Shown here piece after piece: positions 14,066-30,552 of a DNA stretch of 36,976 nucleotides. How positions within the stretch are numbered: the first letter of the stretch is position 1; each line of letters opens with the position of its first letter. Both the position numbers and the translations under genes were made by a program. Source of the DNA: Deltaproteobacteria bacterium (GTDB lineage Bacteria > Myxococcota_A > Polyangia > Polyangiales > JADJMO01). Location of the stretch: positions 1-36,976 of the forward strand of contig JALHOE010000076.1 in assembly GCA_022843175.1 (NCBI GenBank), in the 5' to 3' direction. The notes below the pieces were generated by a model. The model did no database searches. It saw only the letters and a program-made list of their open reading frames with translations, and had not been told where the DNA came from.

Positions 14066-14419
14066 GTGCTAAGATCGCCGCCTCTGGAAGTGCGCGCGGG
14101 ACTGGTGCTCACGCCCGGCGCGGAAATCGAGGTAGATCGCGATGACTCGCGCGTGGGGGAGGGCCCGCGAGTCGACGTAAGTCAGCGATCTCCGGTCGAG
14201 GCTGGGCCAACGAAAACAGTTCGGCCCGATACGCATAGCGAGTCTGCGCAGCGCCCGCCGGCTCCTCCGGATCTCGTTTCCGCGCTGCGCGCTGCGGCCG
14301 CGGACCTCGTGCTCGCGGGCCGCCTCGAGGATGCGCGCAGGGTGCTCGACGCGCTCGACGCGATGAGTCCACGTGCCGACGTTGTGGACCTCGCGAGCGA
14401 GCGCGCCAAGCGTGGGTGA
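14066..14419 (+). CDS. Displaced C-terminal segment of the element's integrase gene
   Basis: From 14087 the codons are in the same phase as the integrase at 27908 when the two 24-bp repeats are superposed. The frame then stays open for 104 codons to a TGA at 14417-14419. The product looks like real protein: a Pro/Thr-rich linker, then an amphipathic helix (LVSALRAAAADLVLAGRLED) and ARRVLDALDAMSPRADVV. In an excised circle the integrase would thus be 551 aa (448 from the right end plus 103 from here). In the integrated state a GTG at 14066, one base after the WYL stop, could start a 117-aa product, but no ribosome site supports it. It may simply be silent until excision. Confidence 0.6.
   Translation: MLRSPPLEVRAGLVLTPGAEIEVDRDDSRVGEGPRVDVSQRSPVEAGPTKTVRPDTHSESAQRPPAPPDLVSALRAAAADLVLAGRLEDARRVLDALDAMSPRADVVDLASERAKRG
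14070..14075 (+). promoter_or_regulatory. -10-like element of the original selC promoter
   Basis: TAAGAT ends 10 bp before the first base of the selC fragment at 14086, the spacing expected for a tRNA promoter. No clear -35 hexamer is visible in the GC-rich end of the WYL gene. In the present arrangement this promoter can no longer make tRNA. It would instead read the left end of the inserted element. Confidence 0.45.
14085..14108 (+). repeat. Left attachment site (attL): duplicated 5' end of selC
   Basis: These 24 bp are identical to 29229-29252 and correspond to tRNA-Sec positions 1-23 (5' acceptor strand, D-stem 5' strand, D-loop) plus the T before it. The identity stops at 14109 (T against C). 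The left flank keeps the native selC -10 element. The fragment cannot form a tRNA. Confidence 0.9.
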
Positions 14420-14487
14420 CCTCAAGCCGTTGCGCGTGCCCGCAAACGGGCTTGCGGTCGATCGATCCTCTGATAACGTCGAAGTCC

Positions 14488-15390
14488 GTGGGAGCAGGCG
14501 CGACGACCACGGAGATCGCAGCGCTGTGGCGAGCCCACGCGCGGATCGACTACGAGTGGCGCGCCTGTGCAAACCAGGCCGGCGTCCTCGGTGCACCCGT
14601 CGCAGGGGAGGCCGGCGGACTCTTCGTTGAGTGCGACGCGCTCGGTCGTCGTGCGTACATGAAGCCGATCAGGTCCGACGCCCAGGTGTGCCGCGCCGCA
14701 CGCGAAAAGATCGCGTCTGACCTTGCCCACGATCTCGGCCTAGCGGTGCCTCCGGTGATACTTGCGGAACGTGGCGCCGACGCAGGCGCCGCGGAGCGCT
14801 TGGTCTGCGTGTCGCTCGTCCTGTTCCCTCGCCAGTGGTCCTGGGGACACGTGAAGACTTTCTTGGAGGATGAAGAGAGTCCGACGACGGTCGCTATGCA
14901 GAACGGTCTCTCTGAGATTGCCGCTCTGGCTCTCGCGTTCGATACGTGGGTCGGCCAGGCCGATCACAACGACCATCCCCATAACATCGTCTTCGGCTAC
15001 GACTGTCGCGGTCAGCAGATCACCGAGTCGTCCTGGGTGTTTCTCGACTACGCGTGCTCGCTCGGGATGGAATCGGTCGACAGCGTCGATGGTTGCCGGT
15101 CGACGTGGGCTGACCCCACCGTGGTATGCCAGCGTGCCGGCTTCCCCAAGAAGCTCGCTGCACAGATTGGCACAGAGGCGCTGCAACAAGCGGTCGAGCG
15201 AATAGCCGCGTTCGACATCCAAGAAATCGGTCGCATTGTAGATAGAATCCCCGACGCATACTTGCCCGAGACCGAAAAGGCCGTGATAGCTCGCGGCCTG
15301 TCCGAACGGCGAACCTTGGTTCGCGAAGTGTTTTTCCCCACCCCCGCAGGAGCAGCGCCATGCAGCTCGACTACCAGCAGGCCGTTGTAA
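14488..15390 (+). CDS. HipA-like kinase-fold protein
   Basis: About 300 aa. The segment FDTWVGQADHNDHPHNIVF (residues 151-169) matches the catalytic loop of HipA-type kinases (D159, N166), and VFLDYACS with D187 fits the metal-binding Asp. A Lys59 in AYMKP may be the ATP-contacting lysine. HipA proteins phosphorylate cytoplasmic targets such as glutamyl-tRNA synthetase; this short form resembles the stand-alone HipA_2 type. The frame is open from GTG 14416, which overlaps the stop of the integrase tail (GTGA). GTG 14488, just after a GATAAC -10-like block, is an alternative and is used here. It overlaps the next gene by 31 bp. It may be cargo (toxin or defence) of the element. Confidence 0.7.
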   Translation: MGAGATTTEIAALWRAHARIDYEWRACANQAGVLGAPVAGEAGGLFVECDALGRRAYMKPIRSDAQVCRAAREKIASDLAHDLGLAVPPVILAERGADAGAAERLVCVSLVLFPRQWSWGHVKTFLEDEESPTTVAMQNGLSEIAALALAFDTWVGQADHNDHPHNIVFGYDCRGQQITESSWVFLDYACSLGMESVDSVDGCRSTWADPTVVCQRAGFPKKLAAQIGTEALQQAVERIAAFDIQEIGRIVDRIPDAYLPETEKAVIARGLSERRTLVREVFFPTPAGAAPCSSTTSRPL

Positions 15391-20013: not shown

Positions 20014-20606
20014 GCGGCCGGTCAATGGTGAACCCCGGACACGGCAACGGCGCGGGTGTGCCGCGCGTCGAGGTCCCTCCGCCCGACGAGCTCTCGTACG
20101 GGGTGCAGGCGCCCGAGCAGGCCGATGCAGGCCGTGAGCGCAGGGCGAACGGCACGTGGGTCAGAGGTGCCAAGCAGGACCAGTCCAAGGGCGGGAAGAC
20201 GCGAGCGGGGACCATCCGGCTTGCGAACGGTCTCGGTCTCGGTCCGCTCGTCACGCTCGAGGCCTTCCGGCCGTTCCTCGAGATGGCCGAGGACTTCCGC
20301 CGGACCCATTCGCTCAACGTCGCGATGCACGTCGGGGGCGGCGAGTGCGGCACCGGGCCCTCGTCGCTCATCGCGTCGGCGGCGCTCCAGCTCGCTGCGT
20401 CGCGCTACTGGTACGCACGGGGCGCGGAGGCGGCCGACGCCGATCTCTTCACCCTCGCGTCCAAGCTCGCGAACGACTCGAGGCAGAATCTGCTCGCGGC
20501 GCACGAGCTCGCGGTACGGGAGTGCAAGAGCCGCGGGGCGAAGACCTCGGGGGCGGAGCGGTCGGCGGCGGCGCTGGCTGCCCTCAACGCTGGGGTGCCG
20601 CGATGA
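20010..20606 (+). CDS. Probable small terminase subunit
   Basis: The 198-aa protein sits directly before the large terminase and overlaps it by ATGA, the standard position of TerS. It is basic at the N-terminus (VRGAKQDQSKGGKTRAG) and helical after residue 70 (LEAFRPFLEMAEDFRRTHSL, LIASAALQLAASRYWYARGA, LASKLANDSRQNLLAAHELA), as oligomeric DNA-recognising small subunits are. A canonical HTH is not obvious, so the call rests on position and composition. It starts at GTG 20010 overlapping the previous stop; ATG 20025 is an alternative. Confidence 0.55.
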   Translation: MSGRSMVNPGHGNGAGVPRVEVPPPDELSYGVQAPEQADAGRERRANGTWVRGAKQDQSKGGKTRAGTIRLANGLGLGPLVTLEAFRPFLEMAEDFRRTHSLNVAMHVGGGECGTGPSSLIASAALQLAASRYWYARGAEAADADLFTLASKLANDSRQNLLAAHELAVRECKSRGAKTSGAERSAAALAALNAGVPR

Positions 20607-22237
20607 TCACCCTCGAGAACCTCCTGACCGCGGGCTTCGGGCTCGTGACGGCGTCGCCGCTTCAACGCGCGATCTGTCGTGCGGCAGACGGTCTCCCCCT
20701 CGCGGACGTACTGCCCGTGGGCGACGTCTCGGCGTGCTTCGGGTGCACGGAGGAAACGATCCCGGTGGGCGCTGCGCCCTCGCTGGTCGTGCTCGTCGCC
20801 GGCGTCCGCGGTGGCAAGACCCTGCTCGCGGTCGCGGCGGCGCTGAAGTCTGCGCTCACGGCGGACCTTTCGAGCCTGCGGCCATACGAGGTCCCGCGCG
20901 TCGCGATCGTTGCCCCGACCGTCGACAACGCGACGGCGGCGTTCTCCATGCTCACCGGCGCGCTGCAGTCGTCGCCGATGCTCCGGCAGCTCGTCGTGCC
21001 CGGGCGCGCACGCGACGAAGACGACTCACTCGGGGCCGGGCCAGTCATCATTCAGCGGCCGGACGGTCGCCGCGTCGAGATCGTGGTGGTCGCGGCGCAC
21101 CGCGGCGGCGTCACCCTGCGCTCGCGATGGCTCGCCGGCTTCGTGCTGGACGAGGTCGCCCTCTTCGGCACGGAGACCACGGGCGCGGCCGTCAACGCGG
21201 AGGAGCTCCTGCGCGCGGCGGAGGGGCGGCTACTCCCGGGCGGTCAGGGCTGGGTAATCTCGTCGCCGTTCGGTCCGAGCGGCCTCCTGCACTCGCTCTA
21301 CAAGACGCATTTCGGGCACCCCTCGAGCTCGGTCGTCGTCGTCCACGCGCCGACTCGTGCCCTCAACCCCGCCTATCCCGCGGAGAAAATCGAGGCGCTG
21401 CGCGCGCGAGAGCCGGACACGGCGGCGCGCGAGTTTGATGCCGAATGGGTCGACGCGGACGCCGCGCTCTTCGACGGCGCCTTGATCGACGGTGCGCGTC
21501 GTGATGGGCCGGAGATCCTCCCGCACGTGAGCGGCGCCCTTTACGCCGCGGCGATCGACCCTGCGACGCGCTCGAACGGCTGGACGCTCGTTGTCATGCG
21601 CGTGGACTACCGCGACGAGCGCGCGTGGTTCCGCGTTGCCCTCGCGCGCGAGTGGCGCGGCTCGAAGTCGAAGCCGCTCGATCCCGAGCAGGTGCTCGGG
21701 GAGATCGCGATCGATCTCGATCGCTACGGCATCAGGCGCGTGGGCACCGATCGCTGGGCATCGGACGCGCTCGCGGCACTTGCGCGGCAGCGCGGGATCG
21801 AGCTCCTCGAGGACGGCGAGTTCGATCGGCCCGCGGAGAAGTACGCGAGCTACGGCACGGTGCGCGCGCTCTTGCAGACGGGCGATCTCGAGCTCGCGCC
21901 CTCGGCGCTGCTCGTGTCCGATCTCAAGTCGGTTCGGCGGCGCGGTTCGGCGAACGGTGTGACGATCGTCCTGCCGAAGACGTCGGACGGACGGCACGCG
22001 GACTTCGCGCCGGCGCTCGTGTTGGCGATGCGCTCGATCGCGCATCGCTCGTACCGCGAGAAGCAGCGACCGCTCCGCGTCGAGGACATCGTCGGCGGAC
22101 GACGCGAGACATTCGGAATGCAGGCATGGGGCGGCAGCGCCTCGATCAACCACGCGGAGCGTGCGCGTAACCCGGCCGTCTACGACGCGGTGCACGGGAC
22201 GAGCGGATCCGATCGCGACAAGTGGGGTGACTGGTGA
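20603..22237 (+). CDS. Phage terminase large subunit
   Basis: 544 aa from ATG 20603. The ATPase half has Walker A GVRGGKT (67-73, Lys72), a conserved AIVAPTVDNA segment, Walker B FVLDEVALFG (Asp183, Glu184) and coupling motif VISSPFGPSG (about 218-226). The nuclease half has an acidic triad: Asp319 in AAIDPATRSNGW, Asp383 in GTDRWASDAL and Asp467 in HADFAPALVLA. All catalytic residues are present, so this DNA-packaging motor should be functional. Upstream open frame is shadow over TerS. Its stop overlaps the next gene (GTGATG). Confidence 0.9.
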   Translation: MITLENLLTAGFGLVTASPLQRAICRAADGLPLADVLPVGDVSACFGCTEETIPVGAAPSLVVLVAGVRGGKTLLAVAAALKSALTADLSSLRPYEVPRVAIVAPTVDNATAAFSMLTGALQSSPMLRQLVVPGRARDEDDSLGAGPVIIQRPDGRRVEIVVVAAHRGGVTLRSRWLAGFVLDEVALFGTETTGAAVNAEELLRAAEGRLLPGGQGWVISSPFGPSGLLHSLYKTHFGHPSSSVVVVHAPTRALNPAYPAEKIEALRAREPDTAAREFDAEWVDADAALFDGALIDGARRDGPEILPHVSGALYAAAIDPATRSNGWTLVVMRVDYRDERAWFRVALAREWRGSKSKPLDPEQVLGEIAIDLDRYGIRRVGTDRWASDALAALARQRGIELLEDGEFDRPAEKYASYGTVRALLQTGDLELAPSALLVSDLKSVRRRGSANGVTIVLPKTSDGRHADFAPALVLAMRSIAHRSYREKQRPLRVEDIVGGRRETFGMQAWGGSASINHAERARNPAVYDAVHGTSGSDRDKWGDW

Positions 22238-23031
22238 TGGAGGCAAGCACGATGAAGGCAGCGAAGACGACGCCGACGCCGGAGACGGCGACCGACGAGA
22301 AGCAAGTCGACCTCATGGCGCGCGCGATCGTGCGTGCACGTGAGATCATCGCCGAGCCCACGCGGCTCGCGCGCGAGGGTTTGGCCGCAGCGGAGCGCGC
22401 CGCACAGGAGCGCAACCGGCGCATCCGCGAGCAACAGGCGGCGAGCTCCTACGAGTTCGATCCGGCGGATCTCACCCACGCGGAGATTGAGCGCGAGCGG
22501 CTCTCGTGGGCGTGGGTCGACACCCGCTTCGAGGACGACGACCGGTTCGCACAAGCGAATGGCCACTGGCTCGTCGCGAACGCGCGCACCGATCGGCGCA
22601 TCGTATTCGGCGATCCGGACTACGGGCACGCCGTGCGCACGTCGGGCCAGCAAGACGACCTCACTGCCCGCGCGTGGTGGTGGGCCGGTTCGCACTCGGC
22701 GTGGGCGTGGCTCGAGGAACGGCTCCCCAAGCCCGTCGCGGAGGGGATGGGCGACTTCACGTCTCGGCTGATCCTTCTCAGCGAAGATGGCTTCGAGATC
22801 TACGTGCGGCAGCCGCATGGGTGGGGTCGGTGGGACTGGCGCCACGATCTCGAGAAGCACAACAGCGCGCGCGCTGTCGAAGCAGCGAAGCGCGCCGAGA
22901 GGGTCGCGCACGACCGCCGTCGCGAGCTGGGCCGGCAACTGCTCGACCAGCATCCCGATCTCGTCATTGCGATGGCCGAGAAGCTCGGCTTCGTCGACGC
23001 GAACGGCCACATCAAGAAAGGAGGTATGTGA
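22234..23031 (+). CDS. Uncharacterised phage protein (265 aa) in the usual portal position
   Basis: Not recognised. The GTG/ATG pair at 22234/22237 overlaps the terminase stop. It has a helical N-terminus (VDLMARAIVRAREIIAEPTR, GLAAAERAAQERNRRIREQQ), a Trp-rich middle (RLSWAWVDTRF, ARAWWWAGSHSAWAWLEERL, GWGRWDW) and a basic helical end. In tailed phages the gene between terminase and prohead protease is normally the portal (about 400-500 aa); this one is too short and has no portal features. It may be a replacement or an unrelated insertion. Confidence 0.6.
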   Translation: MMEASTMKAAKTTPTPETATDEKQVDLMARAIVRAREIIAEPTRLAREGLAAAERAAQERNRRIREQQAASSYEFDPADLTHAEIERERLSWAWVDTRFEDDDRFAQANGHWLVANARTDRRIVFGDPDYGHAVRTSGQQDDLTARAWWWAGSHSAWAWLEERLPKPVAEGMGDFTSRLILLSEDGFEIYVRQPHGWGRWDWRHDLEKHNSARAVEAAKRAERVAHDRRRELGRQLLDQHPDLVIAMAEKLGFVDANGHIKKGGM

Positions 23032-23033
23032 GC

Positions 23034-23837
23034 ATGGAGCAGGAGAACCTCGTTCGTTCGTTCGGAACCCTCGAACGCGCCGCGGATGCCGCGCGTTCGG
23101 TCAACATCATCGCGTCGACCGAAGCCGTCGACGATCACGGCACGATCATCGATCAAGCGTCGTGGAAGCTCGAGCGGTTCATCGGTAACCCCGTCGTGCT
23201 CCTCGAGCACGGAGTCGCCGCGCTATTCGGCGGCGACCCCGCGGATCGTCTGCCGATCGCGCACGCCGAGAACGTCCGCGTCACCGGCGGCAAGCTGCGG
23301 GCGCGCGTCGTGTTCCCCGCGGCGGGTCGCGACGCGCTCGCCGACAAGGTTTGGACCGCGGTAGAGGACGGGCGCCTTCGCGGCGTCTCGGTCGGCTTCC
23401 GACCCGGGCGCGCCGTGCGCGAGGAGGCGAACGGTCGCGACGTCCTGCGGCTGCTCGACTGCTCGCTCCATGAGCTCTCGTTGTGCGCGATTCCCAGCAA
23501 CTCGGAGGCGCTCGTTCAGCGCTCGGTCGCGTCGCTCGACGCGTACGTTCGCGAGCTTCGCGTCGAGAGTAGGCGGTTCGACCAGCGCGTGAGCGAGTAC
23601 CGCCGCAAGCGCTACGCCGAGCTCGGCGAGCAGGTGAGCGACCTCGACGCGATCGACGCCGTCCTTCGTAACGCCGATCTCGCGGACAACGACGTGGCGG
23701 AGAAGACGCCCGCGATGCGTGCGCGCGAGGAGTTCGATTGCCGCGTCGCGAGCCTTCGCGCGCGTGAGCCCGCGTTGCTCGCCTCTGAGGCGATCGACCG
23801 TGTGCTCCGCGGTCTCGACGGGGAGCACGCCGCCTGA
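23034..23837 (+). CDS. HK97-type prohead protease
   Basis: 267 aa. A perfect AAAGGAGGT site (23017-23025) places the start at ATG 23034. The N-terminal half carries the serine protease pattern: His59 in NPVVLLEHG, then PIAHAENVRV, Ser119 in LRGVSVGF and the closing LHELSLCAIPSN. These enzymes cleave scaffold and capsid precursors during head maturation. The C-terminal 100 residues are charged helix (RRFDQRVSEYRRKRYAELGE) and may serve as scaffold. The gene that normally follows, the major capsid protein, is absent. Its stop shares one base with the next ATG. Confidence 0.85.
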   Translation: MEQENLVRSFGTLERAADAARSVNIIASTEAVDDHGTIIDQASWKLERFIGNPVVLLEHGVAALFGGDPADRLPIAHAENVRVTGGKLRARVVFPAAGRDALADKVWTAVEDGRLRGVSVGFRPGRAVREEANGRDVLRLLDCSLHELSLCAIPSNSEALVQRSVASLDAYVRELRVESRRFDQRVSEYRRKRYAELGEQVSDLDAIDAVLRNADLADNDVAEKTPAMRAREEFDCRVASLRAREPALLASEAIDRVLRGLDGEHAA

Positions 23838-24400
23838 TGGCCCGTCACACGAGCCCGCTCGAGGTGGTCGAGATCTGCCTGAGCCACGACGGCACGTACA
23901 TGGCGCGCCTGTGCCCCTACGGGAGCGACGGCGGCGCCGCGATCGCGGTTGGCGCCGATCTCGCCGACGTCGAGGCGCGCGCGACCACCGTCGCGCAGGC
24001 GTACTCGGCGCTGTTGAGCAATTACGAGAAGAGCGTGTCGGTGCACCGGCGCTTCTACGCGCACGCCGTGTACGGCGCGAGCCGGTGGGGCGCAACGGTG
24101 CACCCGCGCAACATGGACAGGCCCCCCGTCTACAACCCCTACCGCGCGTTCATGCTGCCGGTGACGCCGAATGACAGCGTCAACCTCGATAGGCCACGCG
24201 CGTGCAAGTTGTGGGCGGTGTACGGCGGCAATGCCGAAGTCGTTTACGAGACCGGCGCGACAGCGACGCTCGTGATTCCAAGCGGCACGACGGCGCTCGA
24301 CGTTGCGCCGGTCAATCGCATCCGCGCGACGGGCACGACGGCGCGCGGGATCGTCGCGATCTACGACGGCATCCCGTTCCCACAGCCGCAGTGGCCATGA
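23837..24400 (+). CDS. Uncharacterised protein (187 aa) in the major-capsid position
   Basis: Not recognised. ATG 23837 overlaps the protease stop by one base. The N-terminal part is mixed alpha/beta (SPLEVVEICLSHDGTYMARL, ATTVAQAYSALLSNYEK). The C-terminal 70 residues are strand-rich (RACKLWAVYGGNAEVVYETG, ATATLVIPSGTTALDVAPV), suggesting a small beta-sandwich. It is far shorter than an HK97-fold capsid protein (about 300-400 aa). It could be a head decoration, neck or tail component. Kept as unknown. Confidence 0.6.
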   Translation: MARHTSPLEVVEICLSHDGTYMARLCPYGSDGGAAIAVGADLADVEARATTVAQAYSALLSNYEKSVSVHRRFYAHAVYGASRWGATVHPRNMDRPPVYNPYRAFMLPVTPNDSVNLDRPRACKLWAVYGGNAEVVYETGATATLVIPSGTTALDVAPVNRIRATGTTARGIVAIYDGIPFPQPQWP

Positions 24401-24419
24401 GCCACGCGAGGTGCACACC

Positions 24420-27071
24420 ATGAGTGACAGAGAGCTCGTATACCGCGTCACGATCGTTGGGCAGGCTCAGTTCGCGTCGACGCTCAAGAGCCTGACCGAC
24501 ATCACGAAGAAGGCGGCGCAGGAGCAGATCGCAATCGATGACGCGGTCGCGAAGAAGCGGCGCGCGGTGCAGGACGGAAGCGCCAAGCACCACGCATCGC
24601 TGCTCAAGACGCAGATCGCGCTCGAGAAGGCACGGGCCCGCGAGAGCGTTCGCGAGTCCGAGCGGGCCGAACGCGAGGCGATCAAGAACAAGACGCGTGC
24701 AGAGCGCGACAAGACGACCGCGCTCAGCCGCGAGATGAAGGCGCGCGAGCGGCTCGCCGCGCAGGCGCAGCGGGAGACGATCCGCCAGCAACAGGCCGAG
24801 CTCCGCGCATTCGAGCGGACCGAGCGCGAGAAGACGCGCATCGCACAGCGCGAGGCGATGGAGACGCAGCGCTTCGTGATGCGATCGCAGGCCGCGACCG
24901 CGCGCGAGATCATGCGCCAGCGGCAGCAAGCCGCAAACCAGATGGCCCGCGAAGATCGCGATCGGATGTTCGATCGCAAGCGCTTCTACCGCGGCGTCGG
25001 GCAGGGCTTCGTCGAGGGCGGCGCTGGTGCCGCGCGCGCTCTCTATGGCGTCGCCTCGCGCGGCGTGCGCTCGATCGCGCAGGCGAGCGGGTTCGATCGC
25101 TCGTGGGACATCGCAGACATCGCGCAAGAGCAGATGTCGGTCGACGCGACGCTGCGCTCTGCTTCGATCGAGGCGCGACTCGCGGGCAAGTCCGGGTCGT
25201 TCGATGAGAAGGGCGCCGGAAAGAAGATCCGCTTCGCGGCGCTGAAGTACGGCCTCAAGCAGAGCGACCTCGCCGGCGCGATCGACGCCTACTCCGAGAA
25301 GGGTTCGGCCGCGACCGCCGTCACGAACATCGACCGCATCGCGTCGCAGGCGACCGCGCTCGGCACCTCCGCGAGCGTCATTGCGAAGCTGCGTGCGCAG
25401 ATGGGTCTCTCGTCCGCCGTCTCCGGAAAGGAGCTCACCGAGGACGAGAAGGATCAACTCGTCGCGAAAATGCACTTCATCGGCAAGACCGGCGTGTTCC
25501 GCGCTGAGGACGTCGCGCAGGAATCCGAGTCGCTCTTCTCGCAGTTCGCGAAGGGCGGAGGCGACTTCAAGCAGGGCTTCGAGCGCTACCTCTCGTTCGC
25601 GAACCAGGCGCGTGTGGCCACCGGCTCCGGCGCGATGGCCCGCACCTCGATCAACGCGGTGCAGGACGCGATCGCGAAGAAGGAAGGCAAACTCAACGCC
25701 CTCGGCGTCAAGACGCGCGATGCGGACGGCAGCAATCGCGACTTCATCGAGGTCGTGATGGACGCGATCGTCAAGACCGACGGCAAGGGTAAGGCGTTCA
25801 CGCAGATCTTCGACCCGTCGCGATCCGGCAAGGCGATCTCGACGATGATGTCCGCCTACAACGACGCGAGCGGCTACGGAAAGAACAAGGGCGCGGGCCG
25901 CGCGGCGATGGAGAAGCTCCTCAGCGGAGACGCGTCACTGAAGCACGCGACCGTCGCTGAGATGAACAAGGACGCCGCGAGCCGGCTCGACACGCCGGCG
26001 GTGAAGATCGCGCAAGCGACCGAGACCATCCGGCAGTCGTTGGCGGGCGAGCTCGCGCCGGTCCTCGAGGCCTTCGCGAAGAAGGCCCCCGCTATCGCGG
26101 CGAGCATCGCCAAGGCGCTCGACTTCGTGGTGAAGCACCCGATGCTCACGCTCGGCGGCATCGTCGGCGCAGGCGCGATGCAGGGCGCGGCCAAGCCCAT
26201 GGCCGGCGCGCTCGCGCGCTTTGCCGGCGATGTCGTCGGCGGCATCGGCTCACGGTTCGGCGGCATGGGAGGGGCGCTCACGGTCGCCGCTGGCGGAGCG
26301 CTGAAGAGCGCAGGCGCGCAGCCCGTCTACGTGACCGGCGCGGCGCCCGGGGTGTTCCCCGTTGGCGGCGGTGGCGGCCTCTCTCTCCCCGGTGGTGGTG
26401 GTGGCGGTGGTGCTGGCGCCGGTGGCGTCATCGGTCGTGCGGTGATGTCGACCGCAGGGATGGGGGTCGCGCTCGCCGCGATGGTCGGAATTATGGCGAC
26501 ATCTTCCGATCAGCACGGCGAGGGCACCGCCGACAAGGCGGTGGAGGCGGCGAAGAAGCAGCGCGTCTACAACGAGCTGCGCAAGCGTGGCATGTCCCCC
26601 GATCAGATCAACAAGCACCTCGCGGGCGCGAACGGCAACCTCCTCCCCGAGGAGCAGATCGCACGCGACGCGCTCGCGTCGCCGTACGCGAACGACAATG
26701 AGGCGGCTCACATCGCAAAGGTCCTCAACCCGGATGCGCTTGCGTCACCGTACGCGTCGCCCGACGACTACGATTTCGATAAGGGTGGTACGAGCACGTT
26801 CCGCTTCGACAAGAACCCGACGGCGAAGGGCGCGTTTCGTATGCCCGTCACCAAGGGCGAGAAGGGGTACGGCGTTCTCAAACCGGTGGCTACGACGTGG
26901 GACGACCCCGAGGCGCGCAGCGCTGAAGGAAAGTCGGGCGCCACGCTCGCCACCGATAGCGCGAACAAGTCACTCGATTCGTTCGGCAAGGCCGTCGACG
27001 ACGTGACTGCCAAGCTCCGGTCCTTCGAGGCCAACTCTTCCGCGCTCAAACAAGCGTTCGGGAGGATGTGA
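24420..27071 (+). CDS. Tape-measure-like phage tail protein
   Basis: 883 aa from ATG 24420, the largest gene of the element. Residues about 1-170 are a long highly charged coiled coil (ARARESVRESERAEREAIKN, RETIRQQQAELRAFERTERE). A helical TP901-type core follows (about 210-560; LKYGLKQSDLAGAIDAYSEK, SINAVQDAIAKKEGKLNALG). Two hydrophobic Gly/Ala segments (about 570-620 and 680-705, with a run of Gly between) and an Ala/Asp-rich end complete it. This organisation is that of tail length regulators. The assembly chaperones that usually precede it are missing. Its stop overlaps the next gene. Confidence 0.75.
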   Translation: MSDRELVYRVTIVGQAQFASTLKSLTDITKKAAQEQIAIDDAVAKKRRAVQDGSAKHHASLLKTQIALEKARARESVRESERAEREAIKNKTRAERDKTTALSREMKARERLAAQAQRETIRQQQAELRAFERTEREKTRIAQREAMETQRFVMRSQAATAREIMRQRQQAANQMAREDRDRMFDRKRFYRGVGQGFVEGGAGAARALYGVASRGVRSIAQASGFDRSWDIADIAQEQMSVDATLRSASIEARLAGKSGSFDEKGAGKKIRFAALKYGLKQSDLAGAIDAYSEKGSAATAVTNIDRIASQATALGTSASVIAKLRAQMGLSSAVSGKELTEDEKDQLVAKMHFIGKTGVFRAEDVAQESESLFSQFAKGGGDFKQGFERYLSFANQARVATGSGAMARTSINAVQDAIAKKEGKLNALGVKTRDADGSNRDFIEVVMDAIVKTDGKGKAFTQIFDPSRSGKAISTMMSAYNDASGYGKNKGAGRAAMEKLLSGDASLKHATVAEMNKDAASRLDTPAVKIAQATETIRQSLAGELAPVLEAFAKKAPAIAASIAKALDFVVKHPMLTLGGIVGAGAMQGAAKPMAGALARFAGDVVGGIGSRFGGMGGALTVAAGGALKSAGAQPVYVTGAAPGVFPVGGGGGLSLPGGGGGGGAGAGGVIGRAVMSTAGMGVALAAMVGIMATSSDQHGEGTADKAVEAAKKQRVYNELRKRGMSPDQINKHLAGANGNLLPEEQIARDALASPYANDNEAAHIAKVLNPDALASPYASPDDYDFDKGGTSTFRFDKNPTAKGAFRMPVTKGEKGYGVLKPVATTWDDPEARSAEGKSGATLATDSANKSLDSFGKAVDDVTAKLRSFEANSSALKQAFGRM

Positions 27072-27388: not shown

Positions 27389-27555
27389 TAGACAAGGACA
27401 AGAGGTTGCACGTTCGCGTCACGAGCGAGGAGCTGCGGATGCTGGACGAGATCGCGGAGCGCGAGGAGCGGACTGCGGCTGACGTCGTCCGTCGGTTGAT
27501 TCGGCAGGCCCACGCCGAGGCATTCGGCTCGCCGAAGAAGGCGAGGAAGAAGTGA
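27385..27555 (+). CDS. Ribbon-helix-helix (CopG/Arc-type) regulator
   Basis: The 56-aa protein has a beta-strand KRLHVRVTSEELRMLDEIAE then EERTAADVVRRLIRQAHAE, the strand-helix-turn-helix pattern of RHH dimers, and a Lys/Arg-rich tail. It heads a three-gene unit with the ImmA/IrrE protease (GTGA overlap) and the integrase. It is a likely repressor of this operon acting at the direct repeats over its own start. An upstream TTG (27364) is an alternative start but would run through the operator. Confidence 0.75.
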   Translation: MVDKDKRLHVRVTSEELRMLDEIAEREERTAADVVRRLIRQAHAEAFGSPKKARKK

Positions 27556-27905
27556 CCGCCGCTGAGGTCGCAGATCGCGCCGCCGGCGTTGCTGGGCACG
27601 GCGACCCCGATGCAGGCGAGATCGCGGTCGCGATGGGTATCGCGCTCTACGCGGTCCCCGCGCGACGCCTTCACGGCTGCCGGGCGCAGTACGTCCGCGT
27701 CGGCGAGCAACCAGTCATCCACGTCGACGAGGACCTCTGCGGCGAGGACCTGGCTTTCACCGTGGGTCATGAGCTCGCGCATCACCTCGTATGGCTGTGG
27801 GGCGTCGACGTAGTCGGCGATGCGGAGGAGGCCTTCTGCGATGCGATCGCTAATCACTGGCTTACTGCGCGCCGGCGTCGGTCGCCGCAGTTGGGGTCGG
27901 TCTAG
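27552..27905 (+). CDS. ImmA/IrrE-family metallopeptidase
   Basis: 117 aa from GTG 27552. The zinc motif HExxH is present in TVGHELAHHLVWLWG, and a downstream Glu-containing helix (EEAFCDAIANHWL) supplies the usual third ligand. Family members such as ImmA of ICEBs1 cleave a partner repressor to trigger element excision. Here the gene sits between an RHH regulator and the integrase, so cleavage of the RHH protein (or of another small HTH protein) to induce excision is a reasonable inference. No N-terminal HTH is fused. Confidence 0.8.
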   Translation: MTAAEVADRAAGVAGHGDPDAGEIAVAMGIALYAVPARRLHGCRAQYVRVGEQPVIHVDEDLCGEDLAFTVGHELAHHLVWLWGVDVVGDAEEAFCDAIANHWLTARRRRSPQLGSV

Positions 27906-27907
27906 TC

Positions 27908-29437
27908 ATGGCACCGCGAGCGACGGGATCCGTCGAGACGTACACTCGCGCCGACGGCACGAGGTACTACCGCGCGCGCATCCGGCTGAAGGACGGCACG
28001 CGCGAGCGCGTCGACATCCCCGCGAAGTACACAATCGATGAACGCCGCGCGCTCTACGCCGCCGCGATGCAGGAGCGCGAGGACGAGCGCGGCGAGCTGT
28101 TCGCGAAGAAGCAGGCGAGGATCGCCGCAAAGCAACCGACCGCTCCGACCGCCGCCGAGACGCTCGCGAAGTACCGCGAGCGACTCAACACGCACCGCGG
28201 CGAGCTCGGCCAGGGACACGGCGACCCGAGCGCGTGGAAGGCGTGGATCATTCCACATCTCGGCGGCCTCCCCGTCGCCACCGTGACGCGCGAGCAGATC
28301 GAGACGTTCCGAGACACGCTCGACGCCGCGATCTCACTCCACAAGCGCACCGAGGGGGCGGAGGGCATCAGCGCGAAGCGCGCGCTGAACATCTGGTCGG
28401 AGGTGACCACCACGTTCAAGGCTGCGGTGAACGCGAAGCGCCGCGATCTCCGCGTGCGCGCGGACAACCCCTGTAGCGGTGTTCTGCCGCCGGAGCGCGG
28501 CGACTCGCGCCGCAAGACATTCATCTACCCGAGCGAGCTCGCCGCGGTGCTGGCGGGCGACGCGCCCCTCGAGTGGCGCGAGGTCTACGCGGTCGCCGCG
28601 TACCTTTACCTCCGCCCGGGCGAGCTCCGCGTGCTGACGTGGGGGGACATCGATCTCGGCGCCGCGATCGTCCACGTCACCAAGGCCTTCGACGAGCGGG
28701 CTCAGGAGACGAAGACGCCGAAGACGGAGAACGGCGTGCGCGACGTACCGATTCCCGCGACGCTCGCGCCGCTGCTCGCGCGCATGCGCAAGGGCCGCGA
28801 GCCGCATGAACTCGTTGTCCCCGTGCTCGCGACGCTCACGGAGAACCGCCGCGCGCTGAACCTGCGCGCCGATCTCGAGCGCGCGGGATGCACGCGGCCG
28901 CGCCTCTTCGAGAACACGGCGACGACGATGAGCGTCAACTTTAGAAGTTTGCGCGACAGCGGAATCACGTGGCTCGCGATCACCGGCGTGGACATCGTGA
29001 AGACCCAGCGCAGGGCAGGCCATGACTCGATCGAGACAACGCTGTCTTATACGAAGGCGGCCGAAGACCTCACCGGCTCGATCGGCGAGCCGTTCGGCCC
29101 CCTACCCGCGGACCTCGTTGCCGGTGTAGAACCCATCGGCGGAAGCGGTGGATCTCGGCAGCGTCGGGCCAAGCAACGGGCCAAGTTCACCAAAACCGTC
29201 GCCGATGGGCTAGAATCCGAGGCGTTCTTGGAAGTGCGCGCGGGACTGGTGCCCGCCCCCGTCTTCAAAACGGGTGGGCTCGTCCTTCACGGGGCGGCCG
29301 GTGGGTTCGATTCCCATGCGCTTCCGCCACTTTCCGAAACGATATCGATGGGTTGCGCTGATCGACGGCGAGCCTTGGACGTTTCGTTGGACGATTCGAG
29401 CAGCGACGCAGGGAGTTTGGGGAACACCTCGCCGTAG
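27908..29437 (+). CDS. int: Tyrosine recombinase (integrase) whose frame runs through selC
   Basis: 509 aa as integrated. An N-terminal DNA-binding domain (DGTRYYRARIRLKDGTRER), a core-binding helix bundle (about 85-195) and a catalytic domain are present: Arg236 in LYLRPGEL, Arg349, His372 in RRAGHDSIETT and Tyr381 in LSYT. The usual His of the HxxR box is Arg346 (FRSLR). Catalysis ends near residue 390. From Glu442 the codons are the tRNA-Sec gene (to about 474), and the last 35 come from antisense of the neighbouring integrase. At residue 448/449 the frame crosses the end of the 24-bp core. On a circle it would continue into 14108-14419, giving 551 aa. It starts 2 bp after the ImmA stop. 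Confidence 0.9.
   Translation: MAPRATGSVETYTRADGTRYYRARIRLKDGTRERVDIPAKYTIDERRALYAAAMQEREDERGELFAKKQARIAAKQPTAPTAAETLAKYRERLNTHRGELGQGHGDPSAWKAWIIPHLGGLPVATVTREQIETFRDTLDAAISLHKRTEGAEGISAKRALNIWSEVTTTFKAAVNAKRRDLRVRADNPCSGVLPPERGDSRRKTFIYPSELAAVLAGDAPLEWREVYAVAAYLYLRPGELRVLTWGDIDLGAAIVHVTKAFDERAQETKTPKTENGVRDVPIPATLAPLLARMRKGREPHELVVPVLATLTENRRALNLRADLERAGCTRPRLFENTATTMSVNFRSLRDSGITWLAITGVDIVKTQRRAGHDSIETTLSYTKAAEDLTGSIGEPFGPLPADLVAGVEPIGGSGGSRQRRAKQRAKFTKTVADGLESEAFLEVRAGLVPAPVFKTGGLVLHGAAGGFDSHALPPLSETISMGCADRRRALDVSLDDSSSDAGSLGNTSP
29186..29216 (+). promoter_or_regulatory. Element-supplied promoter for selC
   Basis: TTCACC (29186-29191) and TAGAAT (29211-29216), 19 bp apart, lie inside the 3' part of the integrase gene. 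The -10 ends 13 bp before the tRNA start. Since the native promoter was left behind at 14070, this is the best candidate to transcribe selC now. The spacing is longer than ideal. Confidence 0.45.
29229..29252 (+). repeat. Right attachment site (attR) within selC
   Basis: Identical in 24 of 24 bases to 14085-14108. It covers the 5' acceptor strand, D-stem 5' strand and D-loop of the intact tRNA-Sec. Strand exchange must occur within these bases. The downstream 77 nt of the tRNA are chromosomal, while everything upstream is from the element. Confidence 0.9.
29230..29329 (+). tRNA. selC: tRNA-Sec (anticodon UCA)
   Basis: The 100-nt gene has all marks of bacterial selenocysteine tRNA. The acceptor stem is 8 bp (29230-29237 with 29318-29325, one G-U), the T-arm 5 bp (29301-29305/29313-29317, loop TTCGATT), the D-stem about 5-6 bp, and the anticodon stem CCCGT/ACGGG with loop CTTCAAA and anticodon TCA at 29265-29267. 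A long variable arm (29275-29300) can form a stem at 280-285/292-297. Discriminator G and an encoded CCA (29327-29329) end it. It is charged with serine, converted by SelA and used at UGA with SelB. No selB/selA or SECIS-bearing gene is seen in the window. Confidence 0.95.
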
Positions 29438-30552
29438 CCCGTGCGCACGAGCGCGGCCGTGTTGATGTACCCCATCGTCGTCTTCACATCGGAGTGCCCC
29501 GCGCGCGCCATCACCACGAACGGTTCGTCTCCACGCACGGCCATCCACGTGATGCCCGTCGTGCGGAGGTCGTGCATGCGTAGCCATTCGCGCGGCGGAT
29601 CGTCGCACCGCTCGTGCAGTTCCTTGCGCGTAACACCCGCGCGCAGCAGATCGGCGCGGAGACGCTCGGCGAGCGTGCGTTCGTCGCCGAGATCCTCGAA
29701 CAGTCGGCCGGTGCCGTCGGTCTCGCGCCGCATCGCCTCGAGCAGTGGGACAATCTCGGGCTCCATTTCGAAGGGCGAGCGCGCACGACCGGCCTTCGGG
29801 CTCTTCTCCTCGCCGCGCGAGCGATCGATGCCGCGCTGGACCTGGATGATCTTGCGGTCGAGATCGACGTCCTCCCAACGCAGCGTCTCGAGCTCGCCGG
29901 GCCGCAGGTAGTTGTAGACGGCGACCGCGTAGTAGCGGCGGCGGAGCTGAGGAACGGCGGTGCAAGCGAGCAGCTTCGCCAGCTCGTCCGGGTACAGGTG
30001 GACCTTCGCGGTGCCGACGCCGCGATCGGGGGCGCGGACGTCGCGCGCGGGGTTGTCGTCACGAACACGGAGAGAGAGCACCTTCGTGCGACTCGCGTCG
30101 TCGAACATCTTCGTAACGGCGCCCCACGCGTTCTGCGCGCTCTTCCACTTGAGGGTCCTACCCGTCACGCGTTGGTCGAGGCGCTCGACGATCCGCTCGA
30201 GCTCGCGCCGCGACACCGTGCTGATCGGCAGATCCCCGATCACCGGAAGGATGTGGTTTTCGAGGAGGGAACGGGTGGCGGGGACCGAGGTGTGGCCCCT
30301 GCGCTCCTTGTCGGCGAGCCAGCGCTCGCACCACGCGCGCACGGTCTCGGTGCGGCTGCGCGCTCGGCCGACGGCCACGCCGCCCTCGTCGCGCGCGATC
30401 TCGGAGACCGAGGCCGCGAAGGCACGCGCTTGGTTCGGGGTCGCTCCCTTGGGAACGTCGACCCAGGGCCGTTTCCCGTTGGCGACGGTGATGCGCGCAC
30501 GGTGCGATCCATCCGCGCGGCGCACCAGGGTTCCGGTCCGCGGGCGCGGCAT
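29287..30552 (-). CDS. int: Tyrosine recombinase (integrase) of the second element, ending inside selC
   Basis: 421 aa. An N-terminal DNA-binding part (RRADGSHRARITVANGKRPW), a core-binding domain (about 70-160) and a full catalytic set are present: Arg217 in YNYLRPGEL, His327 and Arg330 in MHDLRTTGITW, His353 in ARAGHSDVKTT, Tyr362 in GYINT. It is clearly related to the integrase at 27908, including the shared GITW block. Residues 409-421 (GGSAWESNPPAAP) and the TGA stop are encoded by the antisense strand of selC, with the stop in the variable-arm loop. It thus overlaps the opposing integrase by 151 bp. It starts by ATGA overlap with the excisionase-like gene. Confidence 0.92.
   Translation of the reverse strand: MPRPRTGTLVRRADGSHRARITVANGKRPWVDVPKGATPNQARAFAASVSEIARDEGGVAVGRARSRTETVRAWCERWLADKERRGHTSVPATRSLLENHILPVIGDLPISTVSRRELERIVERLDQRVTGRTLKWKSAQNAWGAVTKMFDDASRTKVLSLRVRDDNPARDVRAPDRGVGTAKVHLYPDELAKLLACTAVPQLRRRYYAVAVYNYLRPGELETLRWEDVDLDRKIIQVQRGIDRSRGEEKSPKAGRARSPFEMEPEIVPLLEAMRRETDGTGRLFEDLGDERTLAERLRADLLRAGVTRKELHERCDDPPREWLRMHDLRTTGITWMAVRGDEPFVVMARAGHSDVKTTMGYINTAALVRTGYGEVFPKLPASLLESSNETSKARRRSAQPIDIVSESGGSAWESNPPAAP

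Follow-up and report, generated by a model that had tools for sequence, protein, structure and literature searches.

An attP within the integrase gene of a phage-like selC element and the predicted exchange of the integrase C-terminus upon integration

What becomes of an integrase whose own gene holds the site at which it recombines? This question is raised by a stretch of 36,976 nucleotides (hereafter the window), one whole contig of a 9.75-Mb genome of the order Polyangiales, in which the reading frame of an integrase gene, int, crosses an attachment core and runs on into selC, the gene for tRNA-Sec. Two identical copies of a 24-bp core were found in the window, with identity ending at both edges and not extending by a single further base, and the genome held no other copies. 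The position of the tRNA-Sec gene (Table 1) means that the core corresponds to the selC 5' end plus one base. As predicted for an integration, the 22-mer at the 5' end of selC occurred twice in the source genome and once in each of the relatives G051 and G052. The cores enclose genes for a terminase, a head protein/protease, a possible tape measure protein and an ImmA-like protease, and the element is therefore a small phage-like one, perhaps a satellite or a reduced prophage; no match to its DNA was found in known phages. Taken together, the sequence comparisons indicate a 15.1-kb phage-like element integrated at the 5' end of selC. The product of the gene at the left end of the element (14416-15390) also weakly matched HipA-like kinases, and integration would separate this gene from the int promoter and place the displaced selC upstream region before it.

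Table 1 Features of the selC element and its surroundings (positions in the window)
Feature	Position	Strand	Details
attL core	14085-14108	+	left end of element; displaced 5' end of selC; identical to 29229-29252
Native integrase C-terminal tail	14109-14419	+	linker and predicted helical hairpin; severed from int by integration; in phase, no stop
Gene after tail	14416-15390	+	weak matches: phrog_3162, candidate defence family PDC-M03A
Terminase large subunit of element	20156-22237	+	phrog_2, E 8e-18
Major head protein / prohead protease	22506-23837	+	phrog_617, E 5e-25; Pfam Peptidase_S78
Possible tape-measure protein	24303-27071	+	PhageMin_Tail, E 1e-4, under Pfam cut-off
ImmA-like metalloprotease	27552-27905	+	immediately 5' of int; weak matches to phrog_87 and capP
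int, integrated form	27908-29437	+	509 aa; crosses core in phase
Integrase body	27908-29228	+	all catalytic residues (R236, K272, R349, H372, Y381); Pfam PF00589, E 1.5e-9
attR core	29229-29252	+	right end of element; inside int and at selC 5' end
selC (tRNA-Sec)	29230-29329	+	ARAGORN; Rfam RF01852 (tRNA-Sec, 65.1 bits)
Host-encoded C-terminus of integrated integrase	29253-29437	+	61 aa and stop
P0002, integrase of neighbouring element	29287-30552	-	antisense into selC 3' end; 34% identical to int

The int product carries a PF00589 domain with the catalytic Arg, Lys, Arg, His and Tyr of a tyrosine recombinase, although the first His of the HxxR motif is replaced by Arg. The five catalytic residues occupy invariant alignment columns and all precede the core, which is reached at residue 440. 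In the integrated state, residues 449-509 are read from selC and then from the antisense strand of a second integrase gene, whereas joining 29252 to 14109 yields a frame of 551 aa without a stop until the TGA at 14417-14419, so that integration swaps the native C-terminus in frame for a host-encoded one. Both cores, the in-phase crossing, the two protein lengths and the TGA are where an initial annotation of the window had placed them, and its assignment of residues 449-509 to selC and the antisense of a neighbouring gene was confirmed. The prophage integrase would accordingly be expected to keep all catalytic residues and to lack the tail domain. Relatives of int came from Polyangiaceae, Labilithrix and unclassified Myxococcales; plasmid homologues numbered two, both weak, and the joined form of the window's own element was not found in IMG/VR, including by a junction search within the same species.

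The initial annotation had likened this arrangement to SSV-type archaeal viruses. Like their (suicidal) integrases, int has its recombination site inside the integrase gene and at a tRNA gene (PMC8371274). In SSV, however, integration parts the N-terminal from the catalytic portion and inactivates the gene (PMC8371274), whereas in the window only a C-terminal domain is exchanged. Because all catalytic residues lie before the core, int is not split into inactive parts, and an SSV-type partition was rejected.

The open frame beyond the left core had also been called protein-like. Its length does not speak for this: long open runs are ordinary in the GC-rich window, where 37% of positions start one as long as the tail frame (P about 0.14 by base composition), and we therefore rejected any claim of significance from frame length alone. 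The frame gains significance because related elements carry homologous, in-phase tails. When 184 genomes of the order were searched with the tail, hits fell at the far end of elements that had been recognised independently through their int body, and in elements with both ends a repeat of 16-50 bp inside int recurred 6-18 kb upstream, the frame continuing in phase from there through the tail. Comparison of the window with 18 other Polyangiales elements (L090, L168 and L169 had no usable core) placed the attP core inside the int coding sequence in every case. All 19 joined frames were in phase and free of stops, with open runs past the far core of 78-159 codons (median 102), compared with medians of 23 and 10 codons in the two other frames and of 12 codons (range 0 to 128) for the host-encoded ends on the chromosome side. 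In a leave-one-out tail model, left-out tails scored 19.7-59.7 bits and shuffles at most 13.1 (window tail, 35.2 versus 8.1 bits). The stops or non-conservation beyond the core that would have spoken against the proposal were absent from these elements, and the proposal that attP lies inside int and that the C-terminus is exchanged on integration was borne out by the cores, the phase and these 18 elements.

In a search with the tail alignment, 64 of the 184 genomes gave a match, and among 30 pairs of tail and int on one contig within 60 kb the tail lay upstream of int on the same strand in 23, about ten of which had also contributed to the model. Across 379 sampled genomes of the phylum, tail matches were confined to Polyangiales. 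The next gene begins on the stop codon of the tail in four elements (the window, with GTGA, L080, L082 and L095), as would be the case if a genuine gene ended there within an operon. For the pair L162/L166, a simple Nei-Gojobori count gave a tail dN/dS of about 0.38 and a body value of 0.17, indicating purifying selection on the tail in this pair and a tail that evolves faster than the body. A contiguous body and tail in G144:C459 (L156) proved to be frameshifted, probably a tandem remnant, and was not counted as a joined form. A further tail-like match was observed immediately 3' of a tRNA-Sec gene in another genus (L170, G069:C260, 8591-8902), where no integrase was found.

Homologues in the joined form, which the initial annotation had proposed to look for, were found in viral relatives, albeit none for the window's own element. 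Single-sequence searches of viral contigs with int, the tail and P0002 gave no close relatives, whereas alignment searches gave matches: in the IMG/VR contigs L226, L227 and L228 an integrase body, an antisense-tRNA-like core and a tail matching the model (25.6, 30.4 and 37.7 bits, respectively) form one uninterrupted ORF, and no tRNA gene was found in the examined stretches. Over 21 bp, the L227 and L228 cores agree exactly with the antisense 3' ends of tRNA-Glu and tRNA-Met, compared with 12 bp reached by reversed controls; the core of L226 matched a tRNA over 10 bp only, not above its control. Exact tRNA 3' ends of 21-28 bp inside the ORF were seen in L227, L228, L223 and L201. Some related viral integrases lack a tail matching the model, and L217, L220 and L223 carry long native tails after an antisense-tRNA-like motif that do not match it; several tail families may exist.

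Joined and integrated forms can also be compared at a single tRNA gene. The second integrase of the window, P0002, stops soon after its core (ending in AWESNPPAAP) and is integrated at the same selC 3' end that forms the core of L201, a viral relative whose integrase is 50% identical to P0002. Within the L201 ORF, a 28-bp stretch identical to the antisense selC 3' end precedes about 87 native residues; no second copy of its core was found in the 40 kb read. selC is thus flanked by two different integrases, one in sense at its 5' end and one antisense at its 3' end. The far end of the P0002 element lies beyond the contig, and a P0002-like integrase was also seen at selC in G052 (L036).

AlphaFold2 modelled the tail as a disordered linker followed by three helices (63-76, 80-93 and 102-109), with high confidence over the last 50 tail residues. 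A fold search with this model gave no significant match, only weak TPR-like hairpins, and a Pfam search returned only a sub-threshold TPR. On the favoured reading, attP lies between the catalytic domain and a predicted C-terminal domain of disordered linker and helical hairpin. Body and tail identities were only weakly correlated (Mantel r 0.23, p 0.015). The tail nearest to that of the window belongs to a tRNA-Leu element of the same genome (L171, G000:C15:50000-69900; tails 51%, bodies 27% identical), the second-nearest to a same-genus element (47% and 34%), whereas the element with the nearest body (56%) has a tail only 33% identical. This discordance suggests, as a lead from few cases, that tails have been exchanged between integrases, for which recombination between tandem elements sharing a core would be a natural route. 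Loci with two integrases or two tails, suggestive of tandem elements on a shared core, were observed in L157 (G118:C61), in L156 and at G118:C4:94024 and 100626.

An exchange of this kind has a precedent, contrary to the initial annotation, which knew of no bacterial case. The int gene of Myxococcus phage Mx8 contains attP and acquires a new 3' end in the prophage, a tail swap known since 1996 (reviewed in PMC6070905, citing Tojo 1996 and Magrini 1999) and for which a switch role has been proposed; Islander likewise makes an exception for Mx8 and SSV (PMC4383910). The window element resembles Mx8 in its tyrosine integrase with attP in its own gene, its host-encoded C-terminus once integrated, its myxobacterial host and the long native tail of its free form. 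It differs in size, at 15.1 kb compared with the 49.5 kb of the complete phage, and in its site: Mx8 uses the 3' end of a tRNA-Asp gene, the window element the selC 5' end on the sense strand. Homology between the tails was not detected (the Polyangiales tail model scored -0.6 bits on Mx8 Int), and Mx8 int matched tRNA-Asp genes of Polyangiales over 9-10 bp only, in a comparison confined to the genes of that order. The sequence data argue for a tail exchange that is real and more general than initially supposed, though not without precedent; what appears new is a conserved tail domain of wide occurrence, with no detectable relation to that of Mx8 and apparently exchanged between integrases, together with the entry in sense at the selC 5' end. 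A related principle is known from mycobacteriophages with attP inside the repressor gene, which have integration-dependent immunity: there, too, a regulatory protein is given a new C-terminus by recombination and a switch results, the altered protein being the repressor rather than the integrase itself.

We favour a reading, with a probability of about 0.7, in which integration of the selC element swaps the integrase tail and thereby turns down the enzyme and stabilises the prophage. The circular element would encode a 551-aa integrase with its tail attached. As read from the sequence, integration relocates the codons for the final ~103 aa to the opposite end of the element, and the C-terminus of the enzyme becomes host-encoded. 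If integration depends on the tail or is stimulated by it, the reaction would turn down its own enzyme and stabilise the integrated state, and excision would restore the int gene, as described for Mx8. A role of the tail as an integration switch is plausible, and since the Polyangiales tail model does not match the Mx8 tail, function is transferred from Mx8 by analogy. The original Mx8 papers are said to have found the prophage form of its integrase less active.

An unlikely alternative to this self-limiting integrase is a real exchange without regulatory meaning, in which tight linkage of attP to int is favoured, the gene has to end somewhere and both forms behave alike. The poor conservation of the tail, under weaker selection than the body, and the variable length of the host-encoded ends would fit such neutrality, but the helical hairpin is kept although the elements occupy many different tRNA genes and their integrase bodies have diverged, and a neutral end would be lost through stop mutations. 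That the tail is instead a separate small gene, such as an excisionase or regulator, lying at the left end and only by chance in phase with int is very improbable and largely refuted. Its position at the end of the element and a GTG-started 117-aa frame (14066-14419) present in the integrated state would suit a gene of its own, but phase is kept throughout the 19 elements, no shared start codon or ribosome-binding site was found among the elements compared, and body and tail form one ORF in the viral contigs. A chance open frame in GC-rich DNA, which the window by itself would allow, is refuted by the homologous tails at the same place and phase elsewhere and by the joined viral forms.

The entry of the element at the selC 5' end on the sense strand is unusual. 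Among the 3,919 islands of Islander, the tRNA fragment left was 3' in 3,760 and 5' in 159, and a 5' site is therefore uncommon but known (PMC4383910); of the 19 elements examined, only that of the window has a 5' tRNA end as its core. Once the element is integrated, the int reading frame takes in all of selC in the sense orientation, and the integrated int message would therefore contain the entire tRNA-Sec. RNase P, which cuts at the 5' end of tRNAs, would then cleave this message no more than one base from the core start and remove the int stop codon, and the unfinished integrase would go to tmRNA tagging. We regard silencing by this path as distinctly unlikely; if true, the integrase would be silenced via tRNA maturation in addition to losing its conserved tail domain. 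Near the tRNA start, a -10-like hexamer was observed both in the displaced left flank (14066-14084, TAAGAT) and at the right end of the element (29205-29228, TAGAAT at attR), and the element may therefore carry, within the int frame, a selC promoter of its own. Replacement of the selC promoter by that of the element is thus possible, although a scan for Sigma-70 promoters in the region preceding selC at attR found none.

The principle is seen in 19 elements of one bacterial order, in which the tail swap is common and a conserved helical domain, which the joined form has and the prophage protein lacks, is removed each time and is apparently exchangeable. These elements provide natural pairs of tailed and tailless integrases for testing integration direction, and how this direction is set and locked becomes testable with one small helical domain that can be added or taken away.
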